The notes under the pieces were generated by a model that saw nothing but the letters and a program-made list of their open reading frames with translations, searched no databases and was not told where the DNA came from. From Chryseobacterium sp. (GTDB taxonomy: Bacteria; Bacteroidota; Bacteroidia; Flavobacteriales; Weeksellaceae): a DNA stretch of 64,000 bases. Location: assembly GCA_027492795.1 (NCBI GenBank), contig JAPUEB010000044.1:1-64000 (forward strand). The letters run 5' to 3'. Of this stretch, positions 4,535 through 28,394 are shown piece after piece. The position numbers were made by a program, and so were the translations under genes. How positions within the stretch are numbered: position 1 is the first letter of the stretch; the number at the start of each line of letters is the position of its first letter.

Positions 4535-5815
4535 TTAAAGACTGAATTCTTTTTTGATATCATCCACTCGGTCCAGTTTTTCCCAAGTGAAGAATTCAAG
4601 ATTTTCTAAAGTTTTTTCGTTGGATTTTCCTTTGTTGAAGGTTTTGCTTCCCACGTAATAATCTCTTCCCATGTGTCCGTAAGCCGCAGTTTCCTGATAA
4701 ATTGGGTTTCTTAATTTCAAGTTTTGTTCGATAGCGTAAGGTCTTAAATCAAACAATTTTTGAACTCTTTTTGCCAATTCGCCATCAGAAATTCCGACTT
4801 TGGAAGTTCCGTAAGTGTTGATGAACAATCCACAAGGTTCTGCAACACCAATGGCGTAAGAAACCTGTACCAAAACCTCATCAGCAACACCTGCTGCTAC
4901 AAGGTTTTTCGCGATATGTCTTGTTGCGTAGGCTGCACTTCTGTCCACTTTGGAAGGATCTTTTCCAGAAAATGCACCACCTCCGTGAGCTCCTTTTCCG
5001 CCGTAAGTATCTACGATGATTTTTCTTCCTGTTAAACCTGTATCTCCGTGAGGACCGCCGATTACGAATTTTCCTGTTGGATTGATGTGGTATTTAATTT
5101 GGTCGTTAAACAAATCCTGAATTTCTTTTTTCTGCGCCGCTTTTACTTTCGGAACCAAAATTTCGGTAATATCTTTTCTGATTTTTGCCAACATTGCTTC
5201 ATCACTTCCGAAGTCATCGTGTTGTGTAGAAACCACGATAGAATCGATGCGGATTGGTTTGTGATCGTCAGAATATTCTATAGTTACCTGCGATTTTGCG
5301 TCCGGACGAAGATATTGGATGGCGTTATTTTCTCTCCTCAAATTGGAAAGTTCCTTCAAAATTGCGTGTGCCAAATCCAAAGCAAGTGGCATATAATTTT
5401 CGGTTTCGTTAGTAGCATAACCGAACATCATTCCTTGATCTCCTGCTCCTTGAGAATTTGCTTTTGTTTCAAAATCAGCTTCTTCCGTAATTCTGTCAAC
5501 ACCTTGGTTAATATCCGGAGATTGCTCATGAATGGCAGAAATTACGCCGCAAGAATCGCCGTTGAACATATATTCGCCTTTGGTGTAGCCAATTCCGTTG
5601 ATTACGTCTCTCGCAATGCTCTGAACATCAAGATAAGCTTCGGATTTCACTTCACCGGCGAGAACAACCTGCCCTGTCGTTACCAAAGTTTCGCAAGCTA
5701 CTTTTGAAGTTTTGTCGTAAGCTAAAAAATTATCGATGAGCGCATCGGAAATTTGATCGGCAACTTTGTCTGGATGCCCTTCTGAAACGGATTCAGATGT
5801 AAATAAATAAGACAT
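4535..5815 (-). CDS. metK: S-adenosylmethionine synthase
   Basis: MetK makes S-adenosylmethionine from methionine and ATP in the cytoplasm. The 426-residue protein starts [17 protein letters not shown] with the His/Asp of the ATP/metal site, and contains [20 protein letters not shown] and the [19 protein letters not shown] signature, all hallmarks of the family. It is somewhat longer than the about 385-residue E. coli enzyme, which is usual in Bacteroidota. A probable SAM-II riboswitch lies about 80 bp upstream on the same strand, giving end-product feedback. Transcription comes from the oxyR side, after the oxyR terminator. Confidence 0.97.
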
Positions 5816-5892
5816 ATTTCTTTTGTTTTTTTAGATTAAAATTTTCAGAAAAAAAACGACCTGATTACAAAAGAAACTAAAAGAGAGAAATT

Positions 5893-5941
5893 CTGTTTTA
5901 GCATTTTTTTATGAGGTTGCAATCAGTTCAAATTTTTCCTC
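5893..5941 (-). promoter_or_regulatory. SAM-II riboswitch aptamer upstream of metK
   Basis: Read on the minus strand, GAGG (5938-5941) and CCTC (5913-5916) form stem P1 around a loop containing ATTTGAACTGATTGCAA. An A-rich linker follows, then ATGCTAAAA at 5896-5904. This order (P1, the ...ATTGCAA loop, A-rich linker, and a GCTAAA strand folding back as an H-type pseudoknot) is the SAM-II architecture as I know it. The aptamer is 78 bp upstream of metK, the expected context for S-adenosylmethionine feedback. P1 has only four visible pairs, shorter than typical. Confidence 0.75.
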
Positions 5942-5999
5942 GTGAGTTATCGGGTGCAAATTTAGTTACTATTTTTCAATTTGCAAAACAATCACTTAC

Positions 6000-6026
6000 A
6001 AAAAAACGCCTCCTTTTTGGAGGCGC
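6000..6026 (-). terminator. oxyR intrinsic terminator
   Basis: A 7-bp GC-rich stem, CGCCTCC at 6007-6013 with GGAGGCG at 6019-6025, has a five-base loop. On the minus strand it is followed by a run of Ts (the A-run at 6000-6006). It lies immediately after the oxyR stop and separates oxyR from the metK leader. Confidence 0.8.
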
Positions 6027-6029
6027 TTT

Positions 6030-6977
6030 CTATTGCGGTTTTACGCTTACAAAATCTTCGGGTGATTTAGAAAAATTCAGTTTTTTCTCCACCGAACTGC
6101 GAATGGAGGTTACCAGTTCATCAATAATTTTTTGTTTGTAAGTCGGTTTATAGTAAATGATACTGATTTCCCTGAAAGGATATGGTTTCCTGAAACGCAT
6201 CACTTTATTGTTTTGATTTTCAGAAAGTTGGTAGGTTGCCATTTCTGGTAAAATAGTAATTCCGCCCACTTTATCCACCATCTGAATCAAGGTATTGATA
6301 TTGGAAGCCAAGAAATCTAAATTTTTCGGTTTCAAGGAATTTTCTTTTAGGTGACAAATGTTTTCAAACTGTGTTCGCAGACAGTTTCCTTCCTCCAAAA
6401 GCCATACTTTTTCTTCATCAATTTCTTCTGGCACAACATAAGTGTCGTGTTTTGTAGCTCCTTCGGAAGAATACAGCATCAATTCTTCATTAAAAAGAAA
6501 ATCCTGATAAAATTCATTGGCAGCATCATAAGGAGTGGCGATAATTCCAGCGTCCAACTCGCCTGTTTTCAAAGATTTGATAATGTTTTCGGTGGTATTT
6601 TCCTTGATGTTCATTTCCACTTTTGGGTGTTCCCGCAAAAAATCGAAAATTTCCGTCGGCAAAATATAAGTGGAAACGGTTGGAATAATTCCGAGATTAA
6701 TTTTTCCACCCAAAATATTGTTCAGCAAATTGGCTTTGTTGCGCAAGTCATTTACAGAATCAATGATGGTTTTTGCGTGAGCGATAATTTGGCTACCAAC
6801 ATCGGTCGTTCGAATGGGATGTGTAGTTCTGTCGAAAACTTTCACATCCAACTCATCCTCAAACTTTTGTATCATCGCGCTCAAAGTGGGTTGCGTAATA
6901 AAACAGGCTTGTGCGGCTTTCCCAAAATGCTTGTATTTATCTACAGCGATAAGATATTCCAACTGCTGAATATTCAT
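6030..6977 (-). CDS. oxyR: OxyR-type hydrogen-peroxide-sensing LysR regulator
   Basis: LysR-family activator, 315 residues. The N-terminal winged helix-turn-helix covers about 1-65 (MNIQQLEYLIAVDKYKHFGKAAQAC...TLSAMIQKFE) and is followed by the substrate-binding-like sensor domain. The sensor contains GNCLRTQFENIC with cysteines at 199 and 208, the same numbers and spacing as the redox pair of E. coli OxyR, which form a disulfide when oxidised by peroxide. It is divergent from the katA catalase gene, a classical target. The intergenic region holds a large hairpin repeat. A strong terminator follows the gene. Confidence 0.93.
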   Translation of the reverse strand: MNIQQLEYLIAVDKYKHFGKAAQACFITQPTLSAMIQKFEDELDVKVFDRTTHPIRTTDVGSQIIAHAKTIIDSVNDLRNKANLLNNILGGKINLGIIPTVSTYILPTEIFDFLREHPKVEMNIKENTTENIIKSLKTGELDAGIIATPYDAANEFYQDFLFNEELMLYSSEGATKHDTYVVPEEIDEEKVWLLEEGNCLRTQFENICHLKENSLKPKNLDFLASNINTLIQMVDKVGGITILPEMATYQLSENQNNKVMRFRKPYPFREISIIYYKPTYKQKIIDELVTSIRSSVEKKLNFSKSPEDFVSVKPQ

Positions 6978-7505
6978 GGTAATAAATATAATCTATAACA
7001 AAGATACACTGTTTATGATAATATTTATCAAAATTTTAACGCAAATTTGATTTGCTAAGACGTAAATTTGTAGAAAGAATTTGAAATATTATTGAAAATT
7101 TAATCGCAACGAACGTAAAGATGTTTATACAAAAAACTTAAATGATTGCATAATGTATTAACCTAATCGGAAATTAATTTTCTTCGTTTTCCCCGACCCT
7201 TCCTTCGAGAACCTCAGGATGACAAAGAGCGAAGAAAATCAATTTCCTCCCATGTCATCCTGAGGCTCTCGAAGGAAGGGTCGGGGAAAAGAAATTGATT
7301 TTTAATATATAATATCTAAATTAGGTAAAAAATTCAGCTATTATAAAACTTAATATTTTTTCGCAAAGGCACTTCGTTCAGCAAAAATTTTGAATGTAAT
7401 AAGTTTAGTTGCTACGCGCAGCGTCGTTGTGAACGTAAAAACAAAAAAGATAAAAAAAATCTTTGCGCTCGTTGCGATAAAAACAAATCATAAAAAATTA
7501 AAAAT
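6978..7505. other. oxyR-katA divergent intergenic region
   Basis: This 528-bp gap should hold the oxyR and katA promoters and OxyR-binding sites, but I could not assign them with confidence. The centre is occupied by the hairpin repeat at 7187-7290. The part next to katA (about 7350-7500) is A-rich and carries a short open frame that I regard as non-coding. No RNA gene was recognised. Confidence 0.5.
7187..7290. repeat. long imperfect inverted repeat (38-bp arms)
   Basis: The left arm at 7187-7224 and the right arm at 7253-7290 are reverse complements at 37 of 38 positions, with a 28-base loop. Each arm contains CCCCGACCCTTCCTTCGAGA and the CTCAGGATGACA core. A diverged relative sharing that core sits at about 11857-12005, so this is a dispersed family and not a local terminator. 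Being inside a divergent promoter region, it could alter local supercoiling or act as a terminator for both directions. Confidence 0.9.
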
Positions 7506-21688: not shown

Positions 21689-22429
21689 TTAATATTTATT
21701 ATTTTTATCATCAACGTAAAAATAATTATTGCCGTCTTTGGTTACTTCGAAGAGATGCGCCAATTTCCAGCTGTAATTTCGTTTGATATCAGCATATTCA
21801 AAGGGAACAATGATGTTGTTATGAACATCAATCACCCCAAATTTATCGTCTTTTGCAGCAATAATCATCGGTTCTTTCACATTGGTTCCTTCCATAATGT
21901 GAAGTAATTGATATTGTGGAGCAATAACATATTGCTTATCGTCATTTTCATTATAAAAATTCTTTTTATCTATAATTCCATAAGCACCTTTTCTTACAAA
22001 ACTATTGAAAACTTGAGGTTTATACGTATTGGCGCATTTACCTTTTTCCTCGTTTTTGTACTGATAAACCTTATTTCCTTTGCTGTCTATACGATAATCT
22101 ACATCCTTTACGCTAACGGAAGCATATTCCGCAGTTCCAAACTTTTTTACAGATTCGTTCGGGGAGTTCAGAAGATTGCAGTCCTCCGTGAAAAAGCCTA
22201 CATTGGAAAATTGAGGCTTAATAACAACTTTTGATTTTTGATTTTTAAAACCAAACTTTCCGTTTTGCAATAAGGGGATTAATCCGGCTACGGAATCGTT
22301 TACTTTTTCGTTTGCCTCACTGGCTGAAACAGAAATTGAGGAATTAAAACCTTGGCCGAGCGCCAATTTGCCTTGCGAGTACAGCAATAGCGATAGACCT
22401 GTAAGAAACAGGCAATACAATTTTTTCAT
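21689..22429 (-). CDS. WG-repeat-containing exported protein (copy 1)
   Basis: The 246-residue product has a signal peptide (LYCLFLTGLSLLLYSQ). Its body contains WG-type repeats: GKFGFKNQKSKVVIKPQFSNVGFF around 55-80 and DKFGVIDVHNNIIVPFEYADI around 195-215, plus a weaker KGAYGIIDKKNFY unit. WG repeats are beta-rich modules of unknown binding function. It is a close paralogue of the next gene upstream, sharing the same C-terminus with conservative substitutions, so it arose by tandem duplication. Regulation is not visible. Confidence 0.7.
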   Translation of the reverse strand: MKKLYCLFLTGLSLLLYSQGKLALGQGFNSSISVSASEANEKVNDSVAGLIPLLQNGKFGFKNQKSKVVIKPQFSNVGFFTEDCNLLNSPNESVKKFGTAEYASVSVKDVDYRIDSKGNKVYQYKNEEKGKCANTYKPQVFNSFVRKGAYGIIDKKNFYNENDDKQYVIAPQYQLLHIMEGTNVKEPMIIAAKDDKFGVIDVHNNIIVPFEYADIKRNYSWKLAHLFEVTKDGNNYFYVDDKNNKY

Positions 22430-22542: not shown

Positions 22543-23265
22543 TCAGTAACGTTTGTTTTTATCATCAATGTAAAAATAATTGGTTCCATCTTTGGTAACT
22601 TCGAAAAGCCTTCCAAGTTTCCAGCTGTAATTTCTTTTGATATCGCTGTATTCGAAAGGAATGATGATTTTATTATTCACATCAATAATTCCAAAACGGT
22701 TTCCGAGTGAAGCAATAATCATCGGATTTTTCAAATCGTCGCCTTCTAAAACATGAAGGTATTCGTATTGCGGGTAAATTCTGTAATGGCGGTAATCTTC
22801 AGGATTGGTGAATGTTGAATCTTCAATGAGTCCGTAAAATCCGTTTTTAACATAGCCGTGAAAAAGTTGCTTTTTATATTCGTTAGGGCATTTCCCCAAA
22901 TCATCTTTTTTGAACTCATAGACACGTTTTCCATACATATCAATACGATAATCAACATCTTCCGCACGAACTGAAGCGTAACTTTTGGTTCCGAATTTTC
23001 TAATTTTCTCGTTTGGGGAATTCAAAAGATTACAATCTTCAGCAAAAAATCCCACATTGCTGTAAACAGGCTTTATGACGACCTTTCCTTTTTGATTCTG
23101 AAAGCCAAATTTACCATTCACTTTCACTGGAAAAAGGGCTGCAACCGAGTCGTTCAGTTTCAACAAATCAAAATTGGCTTTGTGTTGAACTTTTTTGTTT
23201 TTTTTGATTTGTGAAAAACCCGAACAAAAGAACAGCAATAAAAAAGAAACGAAAAATCTCTGCAT
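22543..23265 (-). CDS. WG-repeat-containing exported protein (copy 2)
   Basis: Paralogue of the adjacent downstream gene, 240 residues from ATG 23265 with signal peptide MQRFFVSFLLLFFCSGFSQ. WG repeats GKFGFQNQKGKVVIKPVYSNVGFF and NRFGIIDVNNKIIIPFEYSDI are in matching positions, and the ending (KRNYSWKLGRLFEVTKDG...YIDDKNKRY) is shared. The frame is open to 23310, but that would overlap the exosortase-associated gene and disrupt the signal. It follows the exosortase F pair by 10 bp, so it is likely in their operon. Confidence 0.72.
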   Translation of the reverse strand: MQRFFVSFLLLFFCSGFSQIKKNKKVQHKANFDLLKLNDSVAALFPVKVNGKFGFQNQKGKVVIKPVYSNVGFFAEDCNLLNSPNEKIRKFGTKSYASVRAEDVDYRIDMYGKRVYEFKKDDLGKCPNEYKKQLFHGYVKNGFYGLIEDSTFTNPEDYRHYRIYPQYEYLHVLEGDDLKNPMIIASLGNRFGIIDVNNKIIIPFEYSDIKRNYSWKLGRLFEVTKDGTNYFYIDDKNKRY

Positions 23266-23275
23266 CAATTTTTTT

Positions 23276-23725
23276 TTAAAATTTATTTGCCAATAAAGCT
23301 TTTTCTGCATGTTTTCTGTAATAAAACATAGGAATGATGAGCAATAAAATTAAGGGCTGAATTACAAATCTCCTCATATAAAAGGAAAAAACATAGCCAA
23401 TTTCAAATTTTTGGTAAATACAAAAAAGATATACCGGAAAAGTGATGGCAAAGAAAATCGTCATCAGCAAAATCGCTTGAAACGTCCATTTTTTATTGCC
23501 AAACATGAAATGAATAATGACCGCTGAAAAAATAAGATTCAACAGAAATCGGAATAAATGATTGGTAATCAGTTTCGCCCACTCAAAATCAGGAAAAGGG
23601 GCAGCTTGATTAGCTTCATGAAAATAATTCAGAAACGGATCGTAAAACCAGCTGTCCTCAACCGCGCGAACCGCAATTAATCCAAAAACACCCAGAATTA
23701 CAACAAACCATTTCAGAATTTTCAT
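23276..23725 (-). CDS. exosortase F system-associated membrane protein
   Basis: The 149-residue protein has an N-terminal hydrophobic segment and three further membrane helices (roughly 55-73, 78-100, 120-140), with an aromatic periplasmic stretch EDSWFYDPFLNYFHEANQAAPFPDFEW. Its size, topology and position directly after xrtF match the small membrane partner known beside exosortase F in Flavobacteriia. The start overlaps the xrtF stop by four bases (ATGA). Its role in sorting is unknown. Confidence 0.8.
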   Translation of the reverse strand: MKILKWFVVILGVFGLIAVRAVEDSWFYDPFLNYFHEANQAAPFPDFEWAKLITNHLFRFLLNLIFSAVIIHFMFGNKKWTFQAILLMTIFFAITFPVYLFCIYQKFEIGYVFSFYMRRFVIQPLILLLIIPMFYYRKHAEKALLANKF

Positions 23726-24243
23726 TTTTTCAAAACGAATTTATTAATCCAAATCAGCCAAAGCAGCACCACCAAACCATAAATCACCGCAGGAAATAGA
23801 TAATCGTGTGTTATTTTACCAAATTGCGGGTATTCTGTAAGTACGATATTAAGACCTGCGATTCTTAACACATTCATTACATGCAAAAAAACAATACTTC
23901 CCACAACAAATAAAAAAGTTTTAGCTCCTTTGTAAAATGCCAAAACAAAAGCTGCAAATAAAATCATCACAGAAACTGCGTTGCAACCTTCCACCATTCG
24001 GGAAACATAGTTATTGTTTATTTTAAAATACTCGGTAATCTGTTTCGGAAAATGTTGTAAAACGGTAGAATATCCTGCTGCATTCTGAAGTGTTTTAACA
24101 TGCTCTGCAACCCAACGTGAATAAGGATCGAGTCCGAAAGGCTCAGTACGGTTGAGATACAACTGATACAACAGAAAAAGCGCCAAGTAAATAAGCGCAA
24201 ATCTCAGAAGTATCATTAAAACCGGTTTGAAATCCTTTAACAC
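23722..24243 (-). CDS. xrtF: exosortase F (XrtF)
   Basis: Membrane transpeptidase-like protein sorting enzyme, 173 residues. The exosortase triad is visible: Cys87 in VEGCNAVSVMILF, Arg127 in NVLRIAGLN and His146 in THDYLFPAV, each at the end of a membrane helix. Exosortases cleave short C-terminal sorting signals and anchor the substrate. Translation starts at GTG 24243 (family starts LKDFKPVL); a -7-like box lies only about 5 nt upstream, so the transcript may be leaderless. The partner gene overlaps its end. No obvious substrate with a C-terminal sorting signal is in the window. Confidence 0.87.
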   Translation of the reverse strand: MLKDFKPVLMILLRFALIYLALFLLYQLYLNRTEPFGLDPYSRWVAEHVKTLQNAAGYSTVLQHFPKQITEYFKINNNYVSRMVEGCNAVSVMILFAAFVLAFYKGAKTFLFVVGSIVFLHVMNVLRIAGLNIVLTEYPQFGKITHDYLFPAVIYGLVVLLWLIWINKFVLKK

Positions 24244-24245
24244 GC

Positions 24246-24285
24246 CACAAATATACTAAATAACGCCTAAATTAGTATATTTGTG
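24246..24285. promoter_or_regulatory. symmetric divergent promoter between xrtF and the AmgK-like gene
   Basis: A perfect 14-bp inverted repeat, CACAAATATACTAA at 24246-24259 and TTAGTATATTTGTG at 24272-24285, contains TATATTTG (the TAnnTTTG -7 box of Bacteroidota) on each strand. The plus-strand box at 24277-24284 ends 7 nt before ATG 24292; the minus-strand box ends about 4 nt before GTG 24243. No clear TTG -33 element was found for either, so the assignment is moderate. Confidence 0.5.
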
Positions 24286-24291
24286 CAACGC

Positions 24292-25308
24292 ATGAGCAAT
24301 TTGGAAAACACTAAACAATTTTTTGAAAACTTCACCGGAGAGAAAGCTATTTTCTTCGATGCATTGCCGCAAAGCGGTTCGGATAGAGTGAATTATATCG
24401 GTGAATCGTCTGAGGGAAAATTTGTAATTACTTTTAATAACAATCTTCGCGAAAACGAGGCTTTTTTCTATTTTTCCGAAATATTTTCTGGATTAAATTT
24501 AAACACCCCAAAAATTTTCAAAATTTCGGAAGACCGCAAAACTTATGTACAAGAATATCTTGGAAAACACACATTATCACAAATAATTGATGCAGTAGGA
24601 ACTTCTGAACGCGTAGAAAATTTGGTGAAGCAAACTTTAGATCAACTTTATGAACTTCAGACGAAAACAGATGGAAAAATAGATTTTTCAAAAACTTTTG
24701 AATATGAAGTTTATGATGAATTTCCTGTTTTGAATGACCTTTTTTACTTCAAAAAACTTTTCATCGATATTTTAGAAATACAGTATCATAAATCTTCACT
24801 TCTGAAGGAATTCAAAAAAATCGTTCAAAAAATTGAAAACTTGGAGCCGAAAGGTTTGATGATTCGCGATTTTCAGGCAAGAAATATTATGGTAAATCAT
24901 CTGGATGAAGTATCATTCATCGATTATCAAGGTGCAATGGAAGGTCCAATTTTGTACGATGTAGTTTCGTTTCTACATCAGGCGAAAGCTAACTTTCCAG
25001 AAAACTTCAAAAGCGAAATGACCAGTTATTATATTTCGAAATTTGATTTGGAAAAACAGGTTCAACTAAATCTTTCGGTGAAGCTTTTGCAGCTCATTCG
25101 TTTTATGCAGGTTTTGGGAGCTTATGGTTTTCGTGGGCTTATTCAACGCAGATCTCACTTTATTTCAAGTATCGAAAAAGGAATTGAAAATCTTTGTAAT
25201 TTTTCCGAAAACTGGGATGAAATGAATGAATATCCTGAATTAAAAAAAGTAATCAGCGAGTTGAAATCTCCTTCAATCTCAATGAAAATTAATGAAATAT
25301 TGAATTAA
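24292..25308 (+). CDS. AmgK-like sugar kinase (aminoglycoside phosphotransferase family)
   Basis: Protein-kinase-like phosphotransferase of 338 residues. The catalytic core reads LMIRDFQARNIMV (RDFxxxN, equivalent to HxD...N) and FIDYQGAMEGPILYDVVSFLHQAKA (metal-binding DxQ with the GP..YD block), a pattern shared with AmgK, the anomeric kinase that phosphorylates N-acetylmuramic acid and GlcNAc at C1 in peptidoglycan recycling. The following RapZ-C and MurU-like genes strengthen that reading. True antibiotic phosphotransferase activity is not suggested. ATG 24292 is preferred over TTG 24283. Confidence 0.82.
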   Translation: MSNLENTKQFFENFTGEKAIFFDALPQSGSDRVNYIGESSEGKFVITFNNNLRENEAFFYFSEIFSGLNLNTPKIFKISEDRKTYVQEYLGKHTLSQIIDAVGTSERVENLVKQTLDQLYELQTKTDGKIDFSKTFEYEVYDEFPVLNDLFYFKKLFIDILEIQYHKSSLLKEFKKIVQKIENLEPKGLMIRDFQARNIMVNHLDEVSFIDYQGAMEGPILYDVVSFLHQAKANFPENFKSEMTSYYISKFDLEKQVQLNLSVKLLQLIRFMQVLGAYGFRGLIQRRSHFISSIEKGIENLCNFSENWDEMNEYPELKKVISELKSPSISMKINEILN

Positions 25309-25336
25309 TTTAAACGCAATTTTAGAATATCAAATA

Positions 25337-25741
25337 ATGTTAAACATCGACATTCACAGTTTTTCCTACAAAAAAGGCGGAATACCAAAAGATAATTCCG
25401 GAAACGGCGGCGGTTTTGCCTTTGATTGCCGAGGAATCCTAAATCCGGGCCGAATAGAAGAATACAAAGCACAAACCGGAAAAGATCTTCCCGTTCAGGA
25501 ATATTTGGAAACCAAAACTGAAATGCCAAAGTTTTTAAATTTAATTAAAGACTTAGTTTCCATAACGATTAACGAATATTTATCGCGAGGTTTTGAACAT
25601 CTTCAAATCAATTTTGGTTGTACTGGCGGACAACACCGTTCTGTATATTCTGCAGAAAAAATTGCAGCATTTATCCGTGAAAAATATCCACAAACTTCAG
25701 TAAAAATTACCCACGACGAACAACCACAACTGAATAATTAA
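25337..25741 (+). CDS. stand-alone RapZ C-terminal domain protein
   Basis: The 134-residue protein corresponds to the C-terminal half of E. coli RapZ only. Shared blocks are SFSYKKGGIP at the start, FDCRGILNPGR, TGKDLPVQEYL, and the signature GCTGGQHRSVYSAEKIA at 94-110 (GCTGGKHRSVY in E. coli). The N-terminal P-loop kinase domain of RapZ is absent. In E. coli this C-terminal domain binds glucosamine-6-phosphate and small RNAs and controls glmS expression. Here it lies between AmgK- and MurU-like genes, suggesting an amino-sugar sensing or enzymatic role, which is inference. Confidence 0.85.
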   Translation: MLNIDIHSFSYKKGGIPKDNSGNGGGFAFDCRGILNPGRIEEYKAQTGKDLPVQEYLETKTEMPKFLNLIKDLVSITINEYLSRGFEHLQINFGCTGGQHRSVYSAEKIAAFIREKYPQTSVKITHDEQPQLNN

Positions 25742-25759
25742 TAATGAATAATTAACAAA

Positions 25760-25910
25760 TGAATGTCCGTTTTATGTCATATTTTGATTTTTGAAGCGAA
25801 TTTGTCATTCCGACGAAGGAGGAATCTATTTGATTATCAATAGATTCTTCATTACGCTTCGCTTCATTCAGAATGACAAAGTACTCATTATTACAAAAAG
25901 CGGACATTCA
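25760..25910. mobile_element. MITE-like element with TGAATGTCCG terminal inverted repeats
   Basis: A 151-bp non-coding unit starts TGAATGTCCG and ends CGGACATTCA, with terminal inverted repeats of about 17 bp (14-15 matching). Internally GTCATTCCGA and TCAGAATGAC form a second inverted pair. Very similar flanks (AATTAACAAATGAAT on the left, AATTAACAATGAAT on the right) may be a target duplication. Related copies lie at about 28395-28510 and 57796-57881. No transposase is encoded, so it would depend on one elsewhere. Confidence 0.65.
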
Positions 25911-25980
25911 AAATTAACAATGAATAATTTTCACAATCCTAATTATTCATTATTCATTGTTATTTATTAATTGGAAAAAT

Positions 25981-26694
25981 ATGAAAGCACTCATCTTTGC
26001 CGCAGGAAAGGGAACCCGTTTAAAACCCTTTACAGACAGCCATCCAAAAGCTTTGGCTTTGGTAAATAATGTTCCTTTGCTGGAGCGCAACATCAAATAT
26101 TTACAGGGTTTCGGTATTAATGATTTTGTGGTGAATGTGCATCATTTTGGCGATCAAATCATTGATTTTTTGAAAAAAAATGAAAATTTTGGCGCAAAAA
26201 TTGAAATTTCGGATGAAAGTGCTGAACTTTTAGAAACCGGCGGTGGTTTGGTTTTTGCAAGAAAATTTTTGGATCATGGCGAGGATTTTCTCATAATGAA
26301 TGCCGATATTTTGACTGACTTAAATATCTCTGATTTTGTAGAATACCATAAAAAAAATGAAGATTTTGCAACTTTGGCGGTTTCAGACAGAGAGAGTTCG
26401 CGAAAACTTTTTTTCAATTCGGAGATGATTCTTCGCGGTTGGCTGAATGTTCAAACGGGCGAACAAAGACTTGCGGAATTTAATAAAGGCTTCAGAGCTT
26501 TGGCTTTTAGCGGAATACACTGCATCAATCCTGAAATTTTTAATAAAATAAAACGTTCCGGAAAATTTTCGATTATGGAAGAATATTTAGACTTAATGCA
26601 CACAGAAAAAATACACGGTTATCAGCATAACGCCCATTTGGTGGACGTTGGAAGACCGGAATCTGTATTGGAAGCGGAAAAGTATTTTTTTTAA
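25981..26694 (+). CDS. MurU-like nucleotidyltransferase (sugar-1-phosphate uridylyltransferase)
   Basis: NTP-transferase fold, 237 residues. The nucleotide-binding start is MKALIFAAGKGTRLKPFTDSHPKALA (GxGTRL-x8-PK type), followed by VNNVPLLERNIKYL, ETGGGLVFA (typical of MurU and related enzymes) and the metal-binding NADILTD. The C-terminal DVGRPESVLEAEKY is also characteristic. MurU converts N-acetylmuramate-1-phosphate to UDP-MurNAc after AmgK; the AmgK-like gene two genes upstream supports that role. The start is ATG 25981; the frame opens 8 codons earlier. The MITE-like element separates it from the RapZ-C gene. Confidence 0.85.
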   Translation: MKALIFAAGKGTRLKPFTDSHPKALALVNNVPLLERNIKYLQGFGINDFVVNVHHFGDQIIDFLKKNENFGAKIEISDESAELLETGGGLVFARKFLDHGEDFLIMNADILTDLNISDFVEYHKKNEDFATLAVSDRESSRKLFFNSEMILRGWLNVQTGEQRLAEFNKGFRALAFSGIHCINPEIFNKIKRSGKFSIMEEYLDLMHTEKIHGYQHNAHLVDVGRPESVLEAEKYFF

Positions 26695-26808
26695 AGCGAA
26701 TGTAGTGAATGGTGAATGGTGAATTTTAAATGGCGAATAAATAAATGTAGATAGTATAAGGTAATGAAAAGTTCAAACTTCAAACCTTAAACCTCAAAAA
26801 AAAAATAG

Positions 26809-27567
26809 ATGAGCAAAATAAAACGTGGAAAAGGTTTAACGAAGGTTGTTGCCGGAAATGAAACCGAAATAGATCAAAGAGTAAAAAGTCATTTCCAAGA
26901 GAAAACTTGGGACGAAACCATTACTAAAGACAGTTGGATGGTTTTCAAAATCATGTCTGAACTGGTGGATGGTTATGAAAAACTGGCAAAAATTGGCCCT
27001 TGTGTTTCTATTTTTGGCTCTGCAAGGCTAAAAGAAGGCGACGAATATTACGAAACCGCAGTAGAAATTGCAGAAAAAATCACACAAATCGGCTTCGGAA
27101 TCATTACAGGAGGCGGTCCCGGAATTATGGAAGCCGGAAACCGAGGCGCAAAAAAAGCAGGTGGAAAATCCATTGGTTTGAATATAGAATTGCCTTTTGA
27201 ACAGCATTTTAATCCATATATCGACAAAAATTTCTCGATGGATTTTAATTATTTTTTTGTGCGAAAAGTAATGTTCATCAAGTATTCTCAGGGATTCATC
27301 GTTATGCCTGGAGGATTTGGAACACTGGATGAGCTTTCTGAAGCTATTACGCTCATCCAAACACAAAAAATTGCAAGATTCCCTATTGTTTTGGTAGGCT
27401 CTGAATTTTGGAGCGGACTTTTGGAATGGTTCACGAATACTTTGCTGAAAAACGGTATGATTTCTGAAGCAGACCTGAACCTATACAGAGTGGTAGATAC
27501 GGCAGACGAAGCAGTTGCACACATTAAGGCGTTTTACGACAAATACTCCATCAATGTTAATTTTTAG
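26809..27567 (+). CDS. LOG family protein (Rossmann-fold nucleosidase)
   Basis: 252-residue member of the LOG/TIGR00730 family. Visible motifs are SIFGSARL, GIITGGGPGIMEAGNRGAK and PGGFGTLDELSEA, i.e. the GGGxGxM and PGGxGTxxE pair. Family members hydrolyse nucleoside 5'-monophosphates to base and ribose-5-phosphate, or are cytokinin-activating enzymes in some lineages; an older annotation, lysine decarboxylase, is not supported. The gap upstream of 114 bp is short-period repeat text. Independent of the previous gene, though on the same strand. Confidence 0.88.
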   Translation: MSKIKRGKGLTKVVAGNETEIDQRVKSHFQEKTWDETITKDSWMVFKIMSELVDGYEKLAKIGPCVSIFGSARLKEGDEYYETAVEIAEKITQIGFGIITGGGPGIMEAGNRGAKKAGGKSIGLNIELPFEQHFNPYIDKNFSMDFNYFFVRKVMFIKYSQGFIVMPGGFGTLDELSEAITLIQTQKIARFPIVLVGSEFWSGLLEWFTNTLLKNGMISEADLNLYRVVDTADEAVAHIKAFYDKYSINVNF

Positions 27568-27628
27568 TTGGCATATATTTTGCGAAATACTTTTAGATTA
27601 TATTTGTAATCGTAAATACTAAACGAAA

Positions 27629-28099
27629 ATGAAAAAAATTTTAAAAATATTGGGTGTTTTAACAGTTTTTATGATGATGAGCTTTGTGGCAGCCGACTTT
27701 TATTCATCTATGACTAAAGTAGATTATGTAGAAGGAAGCAAAACCCTAAAGTTTACTACAAAACTGAACACGAACCATATTTCGGATGCCATAAAGATTA
27801 ATCCGAACACGGCAGGTTTTGAAGCTGAAGTAAAAAAATATGTGAACAACAATTTCGATGTTTATGTAAATGGATCTGCAAAAACCCTTACGTTTACAGG
27901 AAGCCAAATAAGTGGTGAAACTGTTTTCGTGTATTTTGAAACGGGCGGTGTAGCAGAGATTGAAAATATAAAGATTAAAAACACAATTTTATTGGGTGCA
28001 TTTCCAAAACAGCTCAACCTTGTAAACATCGCTTATAAAGGGCAACAAAAGACGATGAATTTCCAAAGAGGAAAGGAAGTGAATGAAGTTTCTTTCTAA
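27629..28099 (+). CDS. DUF6702-type exported protein
   Basis: The 156-residue product has an N-terminal signal segment (ILGVLTVFMMMSFVAADFYSS) and the block YSSMTKVDYVEGSKTLKFTTKLNTNHISDAI followed by YVNNNFDVYVNGSAKTLTFTG, typical of the DUF6702 family of small periplasmic proteins of unknown function. A TATATTTG box at 27599-27606 is 22 nt upstream, with TTTG 16 bp before it as a plausible promoter. A terminator follows the gene. Confidence 0.75.
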   Translation: MKKILKILGVLTVFMMMSFVAADFYSSMTKVDYVEGSKTLKFTTKLNTNHISDAIKINPNTAGFEAEVKKYVNNNFDVYVNGSAKTLTFTGSQISGETVFVYFETGGVAEIENIKIKNTILLGAFPKQLNLVNIAYKGQQKTMNFQRGKEVNEVSF

Positions 28100-28124
28100 A
28101 AAGTAGAAAATATCATAAAAAATT

Positions 28125-28153
28125 AAAGCCGTTGTTTTTGCAGCGGCTTTTTT
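28125..28153 (+). terminator. intrinsic terminator after the DUF6702 gene
   Basis: AAAGCCGTTG at 28125-28134 pairs with CAGCGGCTTT at 28141-28150 (one G-U wobble), followed by a T-run. Confidence 0.8.
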
Positions 28154-28394
28154 CGTGTCTTCAATTCTATGAGAGGATTTTTTTAAAATTATTGGAACTT
28201 TGTTTTATTAAATGCCACGAATGCGCAAATATGTTTTTGCTGGATATAGATGAATTGACTTTTTGAAAGGGGGTTTTCTAGGAGATTTTTGGAAGATTAT
28301 TCTGAAATTTATTTTTATTAAACATATTGAGATAGTTGCAATTTTTTTGATTTTTTTAGCGATTATCCATAATATAATAACACACTTTTTTTAG

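Follow-up and report, generated by a model that had tools for sequence, protein, structure and literature searches.

In a Chryseobacterium genome, an AmgK-like sugar kinase, a stand-alone C-terminal domain of the regulator RapZ (RapZ-C, its metabolite-binding half) and a MurU-like nucleotidyltransferase are encoded together, and these three families very probably form a dedicated three-part module for the salvage of MurNAc. The module marks genomes that form MurNAc-6P via AnmK and lack MurQ; AnmK makes MurNAc-6P from anhydro-MurNAc, and MurQ is the MurNAc-6P etherase. Both the co-inheritance of the families and the fusion of RapZ-C to the kinase suggest a cell-wall recycling step that has gone unrecognised, perhaps the removal of a phosphate. 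In the reading that we prefer, to which we assign a probability of roughly 0.4 and whose catalytic steps we infer, the locus is an anabolic MurNAc-recycling module of Bacteroidota with RapZ-C as the missing phosphatase. If this is true, RapZ-C is a candidate for the MurNAc-6P phosphatase needed by AnmK-positive, MurQ-negative Bacteroidota, and would be an unrecognised, widespread component of peptidoglycan recycling in Bacteroidota, gut Bacteroides and Parabacteroides included.

Genes and proteins of the locus

The locus lies in a stretch of 64,000 nucleotides of Chryseobacterium sp. DNA, hereafter the window, and its features are as follows.

23276-24243, minus strand: genes for exosortase XrtF (TIGR04128) and the membrane protein associated with it (TIGR04127), transcribed away from the kinase gene
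24292-25308, plus strand: AmgK-like (APH-fold) sugar kinase, 338 aa (Pfam APH, NCBIfam AmgK, alignment A1, model)
25337-25741, plus strand: stand-alone RapZ C-terminal domain, 134 aa (PF22740, PDB 5o5s, model, alignments A3 and A4)
25742-25980, no strand: spacer with hairpin-forming insert, 239 nt (22-nt inverted arms at 25760-25781 and 25889-25910)
25981-26694, plus strand: MurU-like nucleotidyltransferase, 237 aa (NCBIfam MurU, PDB MurU entries, alignment A2)

An earlier note on this DNA had placed an AmgK-like kinase, a RapZ C-terminal domain and a MurU-like enzyme in one locus, and this was verified with Pfam and NCBIfam for all three ORFs, in that order on the plus strand. The kinase ORF runs from an ATG at 24292 to a stop codon at 25306-25308. 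Its product matches Pfam APH (E=4.5e-9), and its top NCBIfam family is AmgK (E=3.7e-15); the score of 55.9 bits is below the 550-bit equivalog cut-off, and the protein is therefore named AmgK-like. The catalytic R-D193...N198 and D211 are invariant among relatives (alignment A1), as befits an APH-type fold, and the model (pLDDT 92.6) has 3csv as its top PDB match (TM 0.78). The kinase is predicted to phosphorylate MurNAc at C1. The nucleotidyltransferase starts at the ATG at 25981, the mechanical ORF beginning upstream at a TTG at 25957. Its top NCBIfam match is MurU (NF045761, E=2.8e-42), again with a score (145.1 bits) below the equivalog cut-off, here 250 bits, hence the name MurU-like, and its PDB matches are MurU entries (4y7t, E=2.9e-24; 8hhd/9smv, E=3.7e-23).

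The protein encoded between them matches Pfam PapZ_C (PF22740) over residues 3-128 (E=1.5e-31) and PDB 5o5s (E=7.5e-13), and its nearest relatives are found in Chryseobacterium, Kaistella, Bergeyella and Elizabethkingia. PF22740 is its sole Pfam family, with no HAD phosphatase family in the protein, and neither this protein nor any other part of the genome contains the N-terminal P-loop domain of RapZ (PF03668). The kinase and RapZ-C genes are separated by 28 nt. The gap of 239 nt between the RapZ-C and MurU-like genes is occupied by the hairpin-rich insert; the corresponding spacer is shorter than 100 nt in most Weeksellaceae relatives. The insert, which has a GTCATTCCGACGAAGGAGGAATC core, occurs in one copy in the window and is missing from the loci of 80 relatives. 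Scans for promoters and terminators gave a signal near the shuffled background, and no Rfam family scored above its gathering threshold in 23000-28200, where just one sub-threshold snoRNA match was found.

Co-inheritance and the link to AnmK and MurQ

Of 296 Bacteroidota genomes, 36 encode RapZ-C (PF22740). The kinase (A1 profile, E<1e-70) was present in all 36 and in 1 of the 260 others (G009), and MurU (A2 profile, E<1e-50) in all 36 and in 2 of the 260 others (G009 and G231). Fisher p-values for co-occurrence with RapZ-C were ~1e-45 (kinase) and ~3e-44 (MurU), values that overstate independence because the genomes are related. The kinase and RapZ-C form one protein of ~475-510 aa in 26 of 30 loci and are adjacent in two more, while MurU adjoins in 21 of 29 loci (the window's own left out) and is encoded elsewhere in the genome in the remainder; six genomes with RapZ-C have MurU at a separate place and still encode all three families. 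RapZ-C lies apart from both partners in two genomes (G180 and G271), which encode them elsewhere. Within Weeksellaceae, the order kinase, RapZ-C, MurU is kept in 78 of 80 loci, and the other two have RapZ-C and MurU adjacent with the kinase elsewhere. The conserved order in 78/80 loci and the co-occurrence of the three families in 36/36 genomes indicate a gene cluster rather than chance. The link to MurNAc salvage that the earlier note had drawn is borne out. The note's own refuting condition, a RapZ-C found mostly apart from these genes, is clearly contradicted, as RapZ-C is fused to, adjacent to or co-inherited with its partners in 36/36 genomes.

RapZ-C is unlinked from the kinase at four loci (L037, L038, L106 and L120). 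Loss of the kinase was considered for L106 and L120 and rejected, as the gene was found elsewhere in those genomes. At L038 (G271), positions 5773-7493, a stand-alone RapZ-C gene is followed after 33 nt by a co-directional gene for an MFS-like transporter, and the two may form an operon. The RefSeq proteins named "RNase adapter RapZ" in Parabacteroides distasonis (WP_005858754.1) and Bacteroides finegoldii (WP_237923178.1) are the fusion, with MurU directly 3'. For 476-aa kinase-RapZ-C fusions of gut Bacteroidota (L185 3984-5414 and L187 3981-5411), the RefSeq name ignores the kinase half.

The distribution of RapZ-C was compared with those of AnmK (PF03702) and MurQ (TIGR00274, present if E<1e-40), which were found in 208 and 211 of the 296 genomes; in this set, the family f17 and Weeksellaceae are represented by many related genomes. 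RapZ-C is carried by all 13 genomes that have AnmK and lack MurQ, but by 13 of the 195 that have the two enzymes (Fisher p=7e-14); counted by family, the figures are 6/6 and 3/43 (p=6e-6). With f17 left out, RapZ-C occurs in 20 of 21 MurQ-negative and 16 of 211 MurQ-positive genomes, so that 16 genomes carry both RapZ-C and MurQ. Of the genomes that encode both the kinase and MurU, 26/26 with AnmK carry RapZ-C and 10/74 without AnmK do so; the ten RapZ-C genomes (10/36) without AnmK belong to families f16, f34, f45 and f11. The window's own family is RapZ-C-positive, AnmK-positive and MurQ-negative in 7/7 genomes. In the window's genome (G000), AnmK is encoded at C24:50522-51553 with its GLMSGTSLDGLD motif intact, and MurQ is absent.

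A second sample, drawn at class level (104 genomes, 89 of them new), added two genomes with RapZ-C (G298 and G383), each of which lacks MurQ and carries the fusion and MurU (p=0.0026, new genomes). In their families (f51 and f95), the other sampled member or members were MurQ-positive and RapZ-C-negative. The remaining MurQ-negative genomes of this sample were one of 0.5 Mb, one 69% complete and one 92% complete with 5% contamination.

AnmK, MurQ and RapZ-C are all absent from f17 (64 genomes), and a divergent AmgK-like kinase is present in 63/64. At one f17 locus (L161, 3515-8110), a single operon encodes an AmgK-like kinase, a MurU-like enzyme with a hexapeptide tail, the exo-muramidase NamZ and a sodium:solute symporter. 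This operon is likely a salvage route for free MurNAc in which MurNAc-6P would never be formed. NamZ, tried as a discriminator, was uninformative, as it occurs in 286/296 genomes.

A possible phosphatase and its alternatives

The RapZ-C protein contains a phosphate loop, GCTGGQHRS (residues 94-102; C95-x5-R101-S102). The C-x5-R-S motif is invariant in 27 diverse Bacteroidota, in 80/80 Weeksellaceae and in nine RapZs from nine genera of other phyla, the comparison with Pseudomonadota being based on plasmid-borne RapZs. The segment G-C-T-G-G-x-H-R-S-V, FD.R, NPG and a late His are invariant in 27/27 divergent Bacteroidota. The structural model of RapZ-C (pLDDT 93.3) superposes on the C-terminal domain (CTD) of E. 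coli RapZ (5o5s) with Z 19.8 and an rmsd of 1.6 over 122 residues. It places the loop between strand 88-95 and helix 101-116, with the Cys predicted at the strand end and the Arg at the helix start, which is the phosphate-loop arrangement of cysteine-dependent phosphatases. No PTP, LMW-PTP or rhodanese fold was among the Foldseek/VIA matches listed for the model; the closest non-RapZ folds were the sugar domain of phosphofructokinase (PFK; Z 6.8), a likeness already published for RapZ (PMC5737377), and P-loop designs. In our partial coverage of the literature, no paper was found that calls the RapZ loop a C-x5-R motif.

RapZ-C and E. coli RapZ share the fold of the C-terminal domain and a phosphate pocket (C247, T248, G249, H252 and R253 in E. 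coli RapZ), in which the E. coli loop binds sulfate via the backbone of T248/G249 and via R253 (PMC5737377, PMC9841335). Unlike E. coli RapZ, the RapZ-C studied here has neither the N-terminal P-loop domain nor the RNA-binding tail, is paired with an APH-type kinase, has Gly in place of H190 and contains a Gly-rich SGNGGG segment before FD.R. The E. coli mutants C247A and C247S are inactive, and a catalytic thiol was suggested by the authors (PMC9841335); a phosphatase would give a testable account of the essentiality of Cys247. The density of a transformed product after a soak with GlcN6P (PMC9841335) and the phosphatase activity reported for the RapZ homologue YvcJ (PMC7525490) also speak for this reading.

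In the proposed route, AnmK, encoded elsewhere in the genome, would convert anhydro-MurNAc to MurNAc-6P. The C-x5-R loop of RapZ-C would then take up the 6-phosphate, which Arg101 would keep in place for attack by the nucleophile Cys95, and hydrolysis would release MurNAc. From this the AmgK-like kinase would make MurNAc-1P, and the MurU-like enzyme would convert MurNAc-1P to UDP-MurNAc, bypassing MurA and MurB. RapZ-C would take the place of MupP, which in Pseudomonas is a HAD-type phosphatase acting on MurNAc-6P, and in the fusion the MurNAc made by the 6-phosphatase would be passed on to the 1-kinase. Because the salvage route bypasses MurA, fosfomycin tolerance is predicted.

That RapZ-C is a MurNAc-6P phosphatase is proposed tentatively. 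Its strongest objections are the carriers without AnmK and the accumulation of MurNAc-6P in an E. coli murQ mutant (PMC5371407). The 10/36 carriers that lack AnmK and the 16/36 that have MurQ count against this activity. The E. coli mutant accumulates MurNAc-6P despite its RapZ, which implies that E. coli RapZ removes this compound poorly and that the Bacteroidota domain would need another specificity, for which the change of H190 to G and the Gly-rich insert are candidates. In addition, no general acid was pinpointed, and a HAD phosphatase could act unseen.

Instead of an enzyme, RapZ-C may be an allosteric sensor: on binding a sugar phosphate (GlcN6P, MurNAc-6P or GlcNAc-6P), which it would leave unaltered, it would activate or inhibit the AmgK-like kinase to which it is fused or with which it is paired, and would so adjust salvage to de novo synthesis. 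We regard this as possible, if rather doubtful, and rank it close behind the phosphatase. The E. coli RapZ-CTD has been published as a GlcN6P binder and not as an enzyme, with a nanomolar KD (PMC7073468); the sulfate/malonate pocket is largely conserved in RapZ-C, fusion to a kinase is typical for regulatory domains, and a sensor would work equally well in AnmK-less genomes. A sensor alone, however, gives no reason for RapZ-C to be present in all AnmK-positive, MurQ-negative genomes, the nucleophile-like Cys is invariant, and RapZ-C is unlinked at four loci from the kinase that it should switch. It is also conserved like MurU and far above the kinase to be regulated (median identities in Weeksellaceae of 81% for RapZ-C, 81% for MurU and 60% for the kinase; 53%, 46% and 32% in more distant relatives). 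The earlier note had offered an amino-sugar sensor or an "unsuspected enzyme": the tie to AnmK-positive, MurQ-negative genomes and the invariant C-x5-R-S favour the enzyme, short of proof, and the coupling of salvage to de novo synthesis through a sensor was not established.

RapZ-C might also act on a different substrate or catalyse a different reaction, for instance as a phosphatase of GlcNAc-6P or GlcN6P or by phosphate transfer from position 6 to position 1, and in this way feed the kinase and MurU. Such an enzyme would draw on the same active-site arguments, would fit the 10/36 genomes without AnmK too, and would agree with the density of a chemically transformed product seen in crystals of E. 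coli RapZ with GlcN6P (PMC9841335). We consider it improbable, as the association follows AnmK/MurQ status and hence MurNAc-6P. The fold shared with the E. coli RapZ-CTD (Z 19.8) could also mean that RapZ-C acts post-transcriptionally as an RNA adapter, like its E. coli counterpart, and shares a transcript with the salvage genes by convenience. This is very hard to reconcile with the missing basic tail (K270, K281-K283), the replacement of H190 by Gly in 27/27 sequences, the absent N-terminal domain, the fusion to a sugar kinase and the lack of any RNA family above gathering score in 23000-28200. There is a real chance that a new phosphatase family lies behind RapZ-C. The broadest form of this proposal is unlikely in our estimate: the RapZ C-terminal domain would be an enzyme, and C-x5-R phosphatases of sugar phosphates would have arisen in it independently, as a new family. 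Its form in Bacteroidota would be the MurNAc-6P phosphatase fused to AmgK, and the "GlcN6P sensor" of E. coli and other RapZs would be its descendant or still an enzyme.

Relation to described systems and neighbouring genes

The locus resembles the AnmK-MupP-AmgK-MurU route of Pseudomonas in having the kinase and MurU together, in its AnmK-positive, MurQ-negative host and in the expected product, UDP-MurNAc. It differs in its third component, since MupP is a HAD phosphatase whereas RapZ-C is not HAD and is usually fused to the kinase, and in that the kinase and MurU score under the NCBIfam equivalog cut-offs. MupP was discovered by its profile, present with amgK and absent with murQ (PMC5371407), and the distribution of RapZ-C recalls it in the strong enrichment in MurQ-negative genomes, though 16 genomes carry both RapZ-C and MurQ. 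In Bacillus subtilis, YvcJ, encoded beside GlmR/YvcK, likewise places a RapZ-C domain in amino-sugar and cell-wall metabolism, and phosphatase activity has been reported for this RapZ homologue (PMC7525490); YvcJ is, however, a complete two-domain protein, and its partner is GlmR rather than AmgK/MurU.

The AmgK/MurU route is already known, and has been named for a member of Bacteroidota, Tannerella forsythia (PMC7670621; Hottmann 2021, cited in PMC13046382); the texts found on it in the literature searched do not mention RapZ. The literature searched held no paper containing both RapZ and AmgK and none joining RapZ, Bacteroides and peptidoglycan recycling; by title and abstract, papers retrieved for RapZ and MurNAc were reviews or unrelated work. 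The RapZ-C component thus appears to be undescribed in the literature searched.

In the window, XrtF precedes the kinase on the opposite strand and a LOG-family gene lies 3' of MurU; outside the window's family, neither gene is associated with the module. Two adjacent paralogues further along the minus strand (21689-22429 and 22543-23310) have similar sequences of the WG-repeat type (Pfam scan on the second) and apparently arose by tandem duplication. In at least eight relatives (L054 5484-6001, L072, L093, L113, L114, L127, L091 and L097), an ORF of ~127-136 aa lies between the kinase and RapZ-C genes; it presumably resembles a GxxExxY protein, and is degenerate in L091 and L097.
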